From Clostridia bacterium (GTDB taxonomy: Bacteria; Bacillota; Clostridia; Christensenellales; Borkfalkiaceae): 64,000 nt of DNA. The translations under genes and the position numbers were made by a program. The stretch is from the NCBI GenBank assembly GCA_017616695.1, contig JAFZXN010000030.1, positions 1-64,000 of the forward strand. The letters run 5' to 3'. Each line of letters opens with the position of its first letter. Position 1 is the first letter of the stretch. This document shows positions 1-62,443 of the stretch, in pieces. The notes under the pieces were generated by a model, which saw nothing but the letters and a program-made list of their open reading frames with translations, made no database searches and was not told the DNA's origin.

Positions 1-43
1 CTAACGACTTTTTCTTGTGTCAGCAAGAAAAAGTGTTAATAAT
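1..43. repeat. Terminal hairpin of the 60-kb repeat family
   Basis: The first 40 bases match the end of the structured repeat units at 60182-60408: CTAACGACTTTTTCTTG, a short variable loop, then CAAGAAAAAGTGTTAAT. The loop here is TGTCAG, whereas the 60-kb copies have TGTTAA and CCGCG. The rest of the unit would lie left of the window. Confidence 0.8.
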
Positions 44-60
44 TTCTTTACGACCGCAGT

Positions 61-227
61 TTGCGCGAAATTTTCGCGCAATATCGTTTACCGCGTATGC
101 GGTAACATCGTTTGTCGGGAACAGCGTTTGGTCGGCAAACGCCCGACAACACCGTTTGCCGTTGTACGGCAACATCGTTTTACTTGCCGGCGGTACATCG
201 TTCTGCCAACGGCGGTCTGCGAATAAT
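61..227. repeat. Array of short hairpins with CGTTT...AACAT linkers
   Basis: Five to six back-to-back inverted repeats lie here. A palindrome at 61-81 is followed by units at 85-108, 109-152, 153-175 and 176-198, and a degenerate one from 199. Most begin CGTTT and end AACAT, AACAC or ACAT, with a different self-complementary stem between (for example TACCG/CGGTA, then TGCCG/CGGCA). The 109-152 unit is nested: an outer TGTCGGG/CCCGACA stem encloses GCGTTTG/CAAACGC. No credible gene overlaps. The remaining 228-368 shows nothing I can assign. Confidence 0.65.
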
Positions 228-59871: not shown

Positions 59872-59900
59872 TTGACAAAATCACGGAAAACGGGTATAAT
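59872..59900 (+). promoter_or_regulatory. Consensus sigma-A promoter for the 6S RNA candidate
   Basis: TTGACA (59872-59877), 17 bases, TATAAT (59895-59900): an exact consensus, as expected for an abundant structural RNA. Confidence 0.85.
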
Positions 59901-59906
59901 ATAATT

Positions 59907-60159
59907 GCCAAATTCGGGAGTTCGGCTTTGCCGCGCTCTTCACTTCAAAAAACTTTTATAAAAGGGGTATTATAGATAATAAAATTAGCTACGCTATTAG
60001 CAGATAGAAACATAATCTATCGTGTTTACAATAGTGTTGGCGTATTTTGTTATTTATAATACTCTCAATATTTGAAGTGAACGAGTTTGGCGACTTATAC
60101 GATAGACGTGTGTTTTCTATATTTGCCGTCTTCGTATGAGGGCGGCATCTTATTTTTTT
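59907..60159 (+). ncRNA. ssrS: Candidate 6S RNA (RNA polymerase regulator)
   Basis: No open reading frame fits, yet a perfect promoter and terminator bracket about 250 nt. The transcript folds as a rod. The closing stem pairs 59939-59949 with 60071-60081 (11 perfect pairs, extended by CTC/GAG). A 20-bp upper helix pairs 59966-59985 with 60043-60062 using only three G-U pairs. Between them is an open bubble of about 16 nt (5' side) and 8 nt (3' side). A smaller apical arm (GATAG/CTATC at 60003-60007/60017-60021) caps it. Rod plus central bubble is the 6S RNA architecture that mimics an open promoter and binds sigma-A holoenzyme. The assignment is by structure only. Confidence 0.6.
60124..60159 (+). 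terminator. Intrinsic terminator of the 6S RNA candidate
   Basis: TGCCGTCTTC-GTAT-GAGGGCGGCA (ten pairs including G-U) followed by TCTTATTTTTTT. The T-run merges into the left arm of the first repeat hairpin. Confidence 0.85.
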
Positions 60160-60181
60160 GCCACGCAAGAAAAAACATTGA
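60153..60181. repeat. Terminal hairpin of a partial structured repeat unit
   Basis: TTTTTTTG-CCACG-CAAGAAAAAACATTGA is a diverged copy of the last hairpin in the units that follow. Confidence 0.65.
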
Positions 60182-60295
60182 TCTAAATTATATAATTAAG
60201 CCGAGAGCGGCAGCGGGGATTGATTTCCCGCGTTAAGCCGCTCACGACTTACAGATCTAACGACTTTTTCTTGTGTTAACAAGAAAAAGTGTTAA
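60182..60295. repeat. Structured repeat unit 1 (114 bp)
   Basis: Order: TCTAAATTATATAATT, scaffold stem GAGCGG...CCGCTC (60205-60210 and 60237-60242) enclosing an inner 7-bp hairpin (60213-60219/60225-60231, loop TTGAT), then ACGACTTACAGATCTAACGA and the terminal hairpin CTTTTTCTTG-TGTTAA-CAAGAAAAAG. Compare unit 2. Confidence 0.85.
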
Positions 60296-60408
60296 TCTAA
60301 ATCATATAATTGAGCCGAGAGCGGTAGACAAGATTGATTCTTGTCGTTAAGCCGCTCACGACTTACAGATCTAACGACTTTTTCTTGCCGCGCAAGAAAA
60401 AGTGTTAA
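60296..60408. repeat. Structured repeat unit 2 (113 bp)
   Basis: Same scaffold and same TTGAT inner loop as unit 1, but the inner 7-bp stem is GACAAGA/TCTTGTC (60327-60333/60339-60345) instead of GCGGGGA/TTCCCGC. All but one or two positions differ while pairing is kept. The terminal hairpin loop is CCGCG. It ends at the upstream side of the SLOG gene. Confidence 0.85.
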
Positions 60409-60440
60409 TTAGACAAATGCCGCTTTATTTTGGTCGCTGT

Positions 60441-60992
60441 ATGGACTATATTAATAAGAAAACGGCATTTATCGGACATAGAAACGTATATTACGAGGGC
60501 AAAGTATTAAAACGCCTCGAAGCGGCTGTCGGAGAACAGATAAAAAACGGCTGCAAAAGTTTTATTATGGGAACGCACGGCGATTTCGACGCGCTGGCGC
60601 TTTCCGTTTGCAAGAAGGCGCGCAAAACTTACCGCGATATCTATATCGAAGTCGTGCTTACGAGCTATCATACCGTCGAGCAAAAAGACGAGCTTCACTC
60701 TATGCCGTATGCAGACGTCGAAACGTTTATGTACGACGTGGATAACACGCACTTCAAAAGGCGGATAATCGTCAGTAATCGCAAGATGATCGACGAATGT
60801 GATACGCTTATTTGTTACGTCGACGAACGGCAGTACCGCAGCGGCGCAAAAAAGGCGATGAACTACGCCAAACGAAACGGCGTGAAAATAATTAATATAT
60901 TTCGGGCGGACGATTTTCCCACCTTCGGCATGACCGGATCCGAACGCAAAGCTTATTGGGCAGCCTTGACCGCCCCCCGCCCCGATAAATAA
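60441..60992 (+). CDS. SLOG-domain protein (YpsA/DprA-like Rossmann fold)
   Basis: 183 residues from ATG 60441 (MDYINKKTAFIGHRN); starts at 60417 or GTG 60402 would add residues encoded by the repeat edge. Motifs: FIGHRN (near 9), IMGTHGDFDALALSVCKKA with the Gly-rich nucleotide-binding loop, and CDTLICYVDERQYRSGAKKAMNYAKRNGVKIINI, the SLOG C-terminal pattern. SLOG proteins bind nucleotides or nucleotide-derived ligands, and some act in nucleotide-sensing conflict systems. The ribosome site is poor. Confidence 0.75.
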   Translation: MDYINKKTAFIGHRNVYYEGKVLKRLEAAVGEQIKNGCKSFIMGTHGDFDALALSVCKKARKTYRDIYIEVVLTSYHTVEQKDELHSMPYADVETFMYDVDNTHFKRRIIVSNRKMIDECDTLICYVDERQYRSGAKKAMNYAKRNGVKIINIFRADDFPTFGMTGSERKAYWAALTAPRPDK

Positions 60993-61174: not shown

Positions 61175-61216
61175 AAAATCGCACTTTAGAATTATCTAAA
61201 AAAGGCGGTGTGTTTT

Positions 61217-62443
61217 ATGTATATCAAAAGACATTTGGAAGAGCAGGTATTAAAAGCTTCGGAATATTATCCCGTAGTTATGGTGTGCGGGCAGAGGCAG
61301 GTGGGCAAGTCCACAATGCTTTATCATATCAAAGAGGAAGACAGAAAATACGTTACGCTCGACGATATCAACGCACGCCGACTTGCCGAAAAAGACGTGG
61401 GGCTTTTTTTTGAAACGTACGGCTATAAGCTCATTATCGATGAATTTCAGCGTGTTCCGACGATAATGCTCGAAATAAAAAAGATAGTGGACGAGCGCGC
61501 ATTAAAGGGTGAAAAAAACAGCGGTATGTTCTGGCTTACGGGCTCGCAGAAATTCCGGATGATGAAGGACGTTTCCGAAAGTCTTGCGGGGCGCGTTGCC
61601 GTGTTCGATATGTCGGGACTTACGAGAGCCGAGATAGACGGCGAGCCGTATCAAGCTTTTTCTCCCGATATTTCCGCTTTAAAAGAAAAGGCTGACTGCA
61701 TTAAACCGAGATCGGTCCACGAGATATACGAAAATATTTTTCGCGGCGGCCTGCCAAAGCTTCTGACGAGTGATATAGATCGTGAAAGGTATTATGCGGA
61801 CTACGTCAACACTTATCTTGAAAGGGACGTTAAAGACCTTGCACGGGTGGGTAAGATCAATGAATTTTATGATTTTCTCGTTTTTTTGGCGGCAAGAACG
61901 GCGCAGGAACTCAAATACGACGAAGTTGCAAAAGCAATCGGCGTTTCCGCACCGACCGTGAAAACGTGGACGACCGTTTTGGAGCGCTCGGGAATAATCG
62001 CGCTCGTAAGACCTTATGCTTCGAATTTATCGAAAGCTATTGTAAAAACTCCGAAAATCTATTTTTTGGATACGGGGCTTTGCGCTTTCTTGTGCCGTTG
62101 GAAAAGCAGTGAAACTTTGGAAAACGGCGCGATGGACGGGGCGATATTAGAGACTTACGTCGTTTCGGAGCTTATCAAAAACCGCTATAACGGCGGGGCT
62201 ATACCCGATCTGTATTATTACAGAGATATCGATAAAAAAGAAGTGGACGTTATTATTCCCGATGGGAACGGGATATATCCCATAGAGATAAAAAAGAGCA
62301 AGAATCCGTCGCGCCCGACCAAAAATTTCGACGCGCTGTCAAAACTTAAAAAGGAAGTTTATACGGGGCTTATTATTTGTCTGAGCGACGAATTGGTGCC
62401 TTTCGATAGGTCTGCTTGGTATTGCCCGGTAAGTCTTATTTAA
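61217..62443 (+). CDS. AAA_14/DUF4143 ATP-binding protein
   Basis: 408 residues from ATG 61217 (AAAGGCGG eight bases upstream). Walker A is GQRQVGKST (near 27), Walker B LIIDEFQ (near 80), sensor-1-like WLTGSQKF, and ERDVKDLARVGK, which begins the linker to the C-terminal DUF4143 domain with a winged-helix-like part (DEVAKAIGVSAPTVKTWTTVLERSGII) and a restriction-nuclease-like end (YYYRDIDKKEVDVII...YPIEIKKSKNPS). This family is common and accessory in gut bacteria; its function is unknown, though the PD-(D/E)xK-like end suggests nucleic acid contact. Confidence 0.88.
   Translation: MYIKRHLEEQVLKASEYYPVVMVCGQRQVGKSTMLYHIKEEDRKYVTLDDINARRLAEKDVGLFFETYGYKLIIDEFQRVPTIMLEIKKIVDERALKGEKNSGMFWLTGSQKFRMMKDVSESLAGRVAVFDMSGLTRAEIDGEPYQAFSPDISALKEKADCIKPRSVHEIYENIFRGGLPKLLTSDIDRERYYADYVNTYLERDVKDLARVGKINEFYDFLVFLAARTAQELKYDEVAKAIGVSAPTVKTWTTVLERSGIIALVRPYASNLSKAIVKTPKIYFLDTGLCAFLCRWKSSETLENGAMDGAILETYVVSELIKNRYNGGAIPDLYYYRDIDKKEVDVIIPDGNGIYPIEIKKSKNPSRPTKNFDALSKLKKEVYTGLIICLSDELVPFDRSAWYCPVSLI

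Follow-up and report, generated by a model that had tools for sequence, protein, structure and literature searches.

The BOX elements of Streptococcus pneumoniae are characterized in PMC3049150 as interspersed, folded and modular sequences with tandem inner boxB modules in a Gram-positive genome of about 2 Mb; the paper considers repeat families of this sort likely to be non-autonomous. REPs are palindromes of 20-40 bp, tagged GTAG or CGTC, which occur both in tandem and dispersed; those of the CGTC type are stated to have no dedicated transposase (PMC3733652; also PMC3116915 and PMC8266576). The attC sites are, according to PMC2727003, recognized by their folded structure, the stem sequence being variable and one strand favored. 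Members of the IS200/IS605 family possess subterminal secondary structures at their ends, which are recognized by a single-strand transposase, and IS608 and ISDra2 target the lagging strand template (PMC6006769).

The repeat family described here is filed as a small non-autonomous interspersed repeat of a known general kind, its nearest counterparts being BOX, REP and, in recognition logic, attC. Like BOX, it is interspersed, folded and built of tandem modules. It differs from BOX, in a comparison made by description and not by sequence, in that the tandem module is the entire two-hairpin unit, that stems are swapped without loss of pairing, and that a coding boundary often lies directly at one of the ends.

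Repeat units in the window

The window, by which we mean the whole 64,000-nucleotide stretch of DNA that was analyzed, contains two tandem units, 114 bp apart from start to start and 85% identical over 108 nt. A unit generally measures about 105 bp; its left end is AT-rich, and hairpin 1 and hairpin 2 follow, separated by a spacer. Hairpin 1 is made up of two stacked stems with an internal loop between them and a TTGAT loop; hairpin 2 consists of TAAC, a bulged G, a long stem and GTTA. The features are as follows.

1..40, + strand: hairpin 2 (3′ part) of another unit, cut by the window edge (nhmmer 34.3 bits; sequence)
41..185 (end approximate), + strand: element II, a second repeat family of short hairpins joined by AACATCGTTT-like linkers, found after units here and at other loci (sequence; same sequence past units elsewhere)
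60153..60180 (end approximate), + strand: remnant of a preceding unit, a degenerate hairpin 2 (3′ part) (91% identity over 22 nt, 60153-60174, to 60380-60401)
60191..60296, + strand: unit 1, with AT-rich left end, hairpin 1, spacer, hairpin 2 and GTTAAT (nhmmer 108.2 bits; covariance model R1 120.3 bits, unit 1 itself being part of the model alignment)
60202..60246, + strand: hairpin 1 of unit 1, with outer stem of the AGCGG/CCGCT type, inner stem GCGGGGA/TTCCCGC (60213-60219/60225-60231) and TTGAT loop (sequence; RNAalifold consensus)
60258..60294, + strand: hairpin 2 of unit 1, with TAAC, bulged G (60262), 12-bp arms (60263-60274/60279-60290) and GTTA (sequence; repeat search; RNAalifold)
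60305..60409, + strand: unit 2, with the scaffold of unit 1 and another inner stem (nhmmer 90.5 bits)
60316..60360, + strand: hairpin 1 of unit 2, with inner stem GACAAGA/TCTTGTC (60327-60333/60339-60345) and TTGAT loop (sequence; inner-stem typing)
60372..60407, + strand: hairpin 2 of unit 2, with TAAC, bulged G (60376), arms 60377-60388/60392-60403 and GTTA (sequence; repeat search)
60417..60992, + strand: gene abutted by the array, its ATG 7 bp past unit 2 (open reading frame list; Pfam YpsA SLOG family 23.8 bits, below the cut-off of 27.7)

A first-pass annotation, made from this stretch alone, had described two tandem units with a common scaffold and inner stems that are swapped yet paired, and this description is borne out, both stems pairing around TTGAT. 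The third, partial unit that it placed upstream corresponds to the hairpin-2 remnant at 60153-60174, and the fourth, opening the window, to the hairpin 2 at 1-40. The unit length of 113-114 bp given there holds at this array (114) but not as a genome norm, the matches to neighboring units mostly starting about 102-109 bp apart, so that the period here is long for the genome. Similarly, the almost complete replacement of the inner stem is true of these two units but not of all copies, among which a few main types recur (see below).

The unit region folds far better than its own shuffles, with z-scores of −9.6 on the + strand and −12.0 on the − strand. A promoter scan of the TATAAT-like linker revealed one 9-of-12 match within the array (60276-60305) and four in the region versus 2.0 expected, which is nothing clear. 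Downstream of the SLOG-like gene lies an AAA_14/DUF4143 ATPase gene (61208-62443, + strand).

Copy number and distribution

BLAST reveals 62 matches in the 2.07-Mb genome of the organism, some of them overlapping or antisense matches to hairpin 2; together with the folding z-scores these rule out a chance origin of the units. In the fetched parts of this genome the HMM detects 83 non-overlapping matches of 30 bits or more, whole or partial (loci L001-L046 and the window), so that there are at least 83, of which 59 are near-complete and alignable. The family is therefore not limited to a few copies, a prospect that the first-pass annotation had raised against its own reading. Among 61 genomes compared by DNA, units occur in three of the seven genomes of the genus, namely the present one and two of its six genus-mates (G001 and G003). 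A hairpin-2-like match alone, with the same bulged G, is found in G016 (L050) and G033 (L051), both of one other genus; one of these lone hairpins lies just 5′ of an ATG and the other directly past a TGA stop.

Copies in the genome and its relatives were also sought with a covariance model, as had been proposed. In the family, nine of 151 genomes, from three genera, contain units. Of 396 genomes of the order that were searched, six gave matches: the present one and five that belong to a single further genus within the family. None came from outside the family. These genome-wide searches scored at most 26 (family) or nine (order) candidates per genome, so the copy counts per genome are lower bounds. 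By comparison, the two units of the window match no phage or plasmid, and the corrected exact pattern for hairpin 1 has no match among viral contigs; as far as searched, carriage by phages or plasmids has no support. Judged by DnaE, the relatives are Clostridia metagenome-assembled genomes, for instance one from goat cecum with 78% identity.

A search of the whole window against Rfam 15 reveals only a tRNA. For L001, L083 and L069, searched at E values up to 5, the best match over a unit is GadY, with 20.8 bits versus the 45 required, and membership of an Rfam family was rejected on the curated gathering threshold. Nor was the repeat family found described in the literature searched, the nearest being the papers on REP and BOX, in agreement with the initial statement that no described family fits.

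Covariation and conserved nucleotides

Alignment A2 comprises 95 units of three species, i.e., 59 of the 83 matches in the present genome and 36 of the 49 in the loci of its relatives; it leaves out partial units, one unit with an insert, and units of relatives in which hairpin 2 or the end is not recognizable. In these 95 units, 98.6% of the 2840 stem cells are paired versus 81.3% in shuffles, 418 cells carry double changes versus 113, and the covariation score of 0.474 compares with 0.163 for shuffles and no more than 0.135 when partners are slid. The pair types, 42 versus 41.5 in shuffles, show no excess. For the present genome alone the covariation score is 0.291 versus 0.118 in the control, and the pairs with double changes (11 versus 9.5 in shuffles; 53 of 500) are not clearly above it. 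Selection on structure with the sequence free to vary, which had been proposed from two units, is supported by covariation scores that are above the controls in both sets, and far above them over the 95 units.

The unpaired letters are strongly conserved: the bulged G is kept in 94 of the 95 units, and the loop T, T and A and the internal-loop A in all 95 each. Single-copy changes are rarer in the stems (5 over 60 columns) than in the unpaired positions (13 over 42 columns; p = 0.007), a difference that might reflect a cis function of every copy.

Four main inner-stem types recur in the present genome. The GGTCG type is combined with both outer-stem types (nine and three units), and each of the three common inner types is found with several hairpin-2 types. 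The possibility that the inner stems of other copies would not pair did not materialize, the two arms being of matching type in 57 of the 59 near-complete units and of two different types in the remaining two. Because the types recur across outer-stem and hairpin-2 types with arms that mostly match, the inner stems appear to be exchanged as blocks between a few fixed types within the genome; between species, change appears to proceed pair by pair. Locus L033 (2605-3150; G000:C77:14206-14746) contains five copies of hairpin 1 at a spacing of about 120 bp, most of them followed by a different second half (TACGTCGCAAGACGTA), from which it can be seen that hairpin 1 also occurs without hairpin 2.

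Stems that change as blocks, and the two units with inner arms of two types, are also what one would expect of a mutational artefact, with stems held in pairing not by selection but by template switching that corrects palindromes, and with copies spreading by recombination only. Such switching should, however, erase bulges and wobbles, whereas the bulged G and more than 150 G-T cells of hairpin 1 persist; the one-sided abutment to coding boundaries described below would be left unexplained as well. We regard this explanation as highly improbable.

The distribution of wobble pairs indicates which strand folds. Hairpin 1 contains 157 G-T cells versus six A-C cells, 143 of the 157 coming from three pairs, and this excess argues that pairing is maintained on the + strand, with the caveat that source copies may have passed on the bias and that the cells are not independent. 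Hairpin 2 exhibits no strand preference (six G-T versus ten A-C). For hairpin 1 the G-T to A-C ratio is alike where the + strand is antisense to the neighboring gene (47:0 in 26 units) and where it is sense (36:0 in 20 units), a split that was assigned by hand and covers 46 of the 59 units. There is no bias with respect to replication, 12 arrays lying with and 12 against the GC skew in stretches where the skew is clear; relative to the coding strand the counts are 13 and 11.

The boxes of attC sites read RYYYAAC/GTTRRRY. The imperfect hairpins, with a conserved extrahelical base beside a CTAAC/GTTA pair, presumably resemble these sites, as do the conservation of the fold with variable stem sequence and the favoring of one strand. 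Unlike attC, the core boxes differ between species: G003 and most of the units seen in another genus (g8) have TCAC/GTGA in place of TAAC/GTTA, and GTTAAT is found in most units of the present genome. Furthermore, the named abutted genes are mostly housekeeping genes and not cassettes. Membership of the attC class was rejected on the core boxes, judged against that consensus.

Position relative to genes

Beyond the single window it becomes apparent that the hairpin-2 (right) end of the arrays often abuts a coding boundary and that the other end does not. The right end lies within 10 bp of a called boundary in 33 of the 64 arrays assessed (31 after correction by eye), versus none of 74 left ends (p = 2e-14 on the raw count); within 25, 50 and 100 bp there are two, four and 16 of the 74 left ends, respectively. 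From a total of 85 arrays, the right-end count omits 16 in which the HMM match stops short of the hairpin-2 end and five in which element II comes next, and the left-end count omits 11 at contig edges. The raw right-end counts are 18 of 33 in the present genome, 8 of 14 in G001, 6 of 11 in G003 and 1 of 6 at loci of other genera. For 20 of the 64 right ends no boundary was called within 100 bp, and other repeats follow some of these. This one-sided abutment is not what random intergenic insertion predicts.

The boundary caller was crude, overcalling in some places and missing boundaries in others. Five of its START calls (at −8 or −6) are start-like triplets inside hairpin 2, the first ATG lying 6-13 bp past the unit in four cases and about 60 bp past it in L002, hence the corrected figure; conversely, near ATGs in L071, L083 and L198 were missed, as judged by eye. 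The stop codons are independent of start choice, and their offsets are tight, with 22 of 28 STOP calls at 7 bp or less. For units of genus g8, the hairpin-2 end overlaps or adjoins the ribosome-binding site of genes with matches to dihydrofolate reductase, HslU, ClpX and L36, and it is found 0-4 bp from the stops of genes matching GuaA, IMP dehydrogenase, LepA, DnaK and L1. The GuaA, LepA and L1 genes stop where their family profiles end or no more than nine residues away, so these boundaries are real.

Several starts abutted by hairpin 2 lack an obvious ribosome-binding site and often have T-rich sequence ahead of the ATG (L011, L013, L018 and L041 in the present genome; L069 and L077 in G001; L079, L084 and L085 in G003). 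Units or their parts also adjoin apparent ribosomal protein genes of the rpsL-rpsG region, named by eye, in two genera (L177 in G068, L178 in G030, L193 in G173). As to the suggestion that copies might flank one specific gene family, the nine similar flank pairs found within one genome proved to be six overlapping fetches of one place and three weak pairs. In 21 stretches that were picked for holding arrays, two of which overlap by 4 kb, the unit-bearing gaps are long (median 583 bp in 24 gaps versus 88 bp in 264 others) and only one of the 24 separates divergent genes, versus 34 of the 264.

The groEL locus displays a filled and an empty state of one site. Past the groEL stop of the present genome come 5 bp and then two units, of which the far one lacks its left end; approximately 30 bp further on stands a terminator hairpin that has a T run. 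From stop to terminator the distance is approximately 245 bp versus 20-30 bp in the relatives, the terminator being kept beyond the units. All five relatives giving a locus (G001, G002, G004, G005 and G006) have no units at this site, a comparison that concerns one insertion with flanks not aligned letter by letter, and in which G003 gave no groEL match. The gap before dnaE, with the same upstream gene, measures approximately 640 bp versus 60-90 bp in two public relatives. A site before nrdG is common to the present genome and G001 and is the sole one shared among the array flanks compared between species. The first-pass annotation had offered a family of structured RNAs, a protein-bound hairpin array or a non-autonomous mobile element; the patchy occurrence among sister species, the single shared site and the empty groEL site favor the last of these.

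The main rival to a mobile unit is a cis-acting element of mRNA ends, in which hairpin 2, a hairpin on both strands, would protect the 5′-end of the following gene or the 3′-end of the preceding one, with selection keeping the copies and deletion bias removing the DNA in between. It would account for units that abut starts as well as stops, for a hairpin 2 without strand preference that in genus g8 reaches the ribosome-binding sites named above, for the scarcity of single-copy changes in stems relative to unpaired columns, and for the nrdG site common to two species. It is at odds with the patchiness among sister species, with just one shared site among the flanks compared, and with the absence of units at groEL in five of five relatives. 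Moreover, hairpin 1 pairs on the + strand whether this is sense or antisense to the gene, and two to five tandem copies would be unneeded for the protection of an end. We consider an mRNA-end element rather improbable.

Associated elements

Element II has changing stems and lies between or after units; it is also seen at L003, L010, L011, L012, L029 and L036, and by eye G001 contains a similar chain with AGTTATATT-like linkers. The left flanks of arrays carry heptamer-like tandem repeats and then hairpins, the repeats being CAATTCG-like in the present genome (L036, L029) and AAAGTTG-like in G003 (L081, L083, L087). A composite element may span the whole gap.

Positions 59872-60160 of the window (+ strand) comprise a perfect TTGACA-17-TATAAT promoter, a long bulged hairpin of about 220 nt and a terminator-like hairpin. 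The fold of 59905-60162 has a z-score of −11.5, and by eye the candidate transcript looks like a 6S-type RNA. The region has no match in Rfam, and 89 nt of it recur in G001 at 81% identity.

Search for a mobilizing enzyme

The present genome has no intact gene for a Y1 transposase (PF01797); one fragment of 82 amino acids was found, which is IS200-like by eye. Elsewhere, two intact Y1 genes are present in G003, one in the unit-free G002, and four matches in G030 and G068, with none in G001, G080, G098, G127 and G173; Y1 thus occurs in two of the six unit-bearing genomes outside the genus. Reverse transcriptase is matched in three of the nine unit-bearing genomes, and in the present one there is no match. 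Covariance model R1 detects no unit in eight Y1 loci, nor does any lie in the 12 loci examined when the reverse transcriptase matches are counted in. Neither enzyme is matched in G080, a 97% complete genome with at least ten unit matches. A Y1/RAYT protein as the mover is therefore not supported, given the lone fragment here, its absence from several unit-bearing genomes and the want of adjacent units, and a reverse transcriptase was rejected on its presence in only three of nine genomes and never beside units. The present genome encodes one tyrosine recombinase with generic Pfam domains, and at the level of such domains no integron integrase (IntI) was identified in it; in eight relatives there are 0-13 matches each to PF00589, of no assigned recombinase type.

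Target duplications are suggestive in L087 and L181, among a few G003 arrays, and over 30 multi-unit arrays they are not significant (p = 0.22). By eye in A1 and A2, the left end (TATAATTA-like) and the right end (GTTAAT or GTGAAC) are not inverted copies of each other, and a MITE with terminal inverted repeats was rejected on this feature.

As with REP, BIME and REPIN sequences, the family comprises numerous imperfect palindromes between genes, their stems variable and their unpaired letters conserved. The present unit differs in its length of about 105 bp, its two different hairpins and the lack of a terminal GTAG or CGTC tag in A1 and A2, and no RAYT-like gene was found beside units; REP/RAYT membership was rejected, neither the palindrome size and tag nor a repeat-flanked Y1 gene being observed. 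It likewise differs from IS200/IS605 in that the genome is without an intact Y1 gene and the arrays show no strand bias versus GC skew, and membership of that type was rejected on the lack of insertion bias for one replication strand (12:12).

A broader explanation is that the unit is a folded single-strand site of the REP/RAYT, IS200/IS605 or attC type, the Y1 enzyme or tyrosine recombinase being missing from the assemblies or acting from another element. The imperfect hairpins with their extrahelical base beside CTAAC/GTTA are attC-like, G003 possesses two intact Y1 genes, and relatives have up to 13 tyrosine-recombinase matches, all of which would fit. The palindromes are also both tandem and dispersed, as REPs are (PMC3733652). 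On the other side stand the lack of an intact Y1 gene in the present genome and of any match in the five genomes named above, the absence of units beside the Y1 genes found, the occurrence here of one tyrosine recombinase only, and the TCAC/GTGA boxes of G003 and most g8 units seen, unlike the attC core. The even distribution over the replication strands differs, too, from the use of the lagging strand template by IS608 and ISDra2 (PMC6006769). We judge a site of this kind to be distinctly improbable.

Proposed mechanism

On balance we lean towards the view that the unit is a mobile repeat, non-autonomous and dependent on its fold, which is moved by a putative host enzyme and comes to rest at the edges of genes. 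This enzyme would recognize the unit by its fold and not by the letters of its stems, the folded + strand presumably being the form that is read. A folded + strand copy, as DNA or RNA, would insert into untranslated sequence directly bordering the translated region, with its hairpin-2 end facing the gene; insertions within coding sequence would not persist. The shared TTGAT-type loop would allow copies to trade their inner stems as blocks. The copies would move themselves, and not arise by duplication and gene conversion alone; arrays of two to five units would probably grow by repeated insertion or by unequal exchange at one place.

A more specific proposal is that the mobile element targets the edge of the translated region itself, its hairpin-2 end to the gene, via a folded single strand whose stems are re-invented and traded; the target might be, for instance, DNA exposed by RNA-DNA hybrids just before the ribosome-binding site or after the stop. 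This we consider unlikely.

Conclusions

Dozens of copies in several diverged species constitute a natural experiment that separates structure from sequence, and thereby the candidate recognized letters can be read, i.e., the bulge, the TTxA loop and the internal loop. The folded repeats sit at the ends of core genes, including groEL, dnaE, guaA, lepA and others, and may affect their expression. Should the abutment be a product of targeting, a mobile element would be capable of sensing where translation ends.
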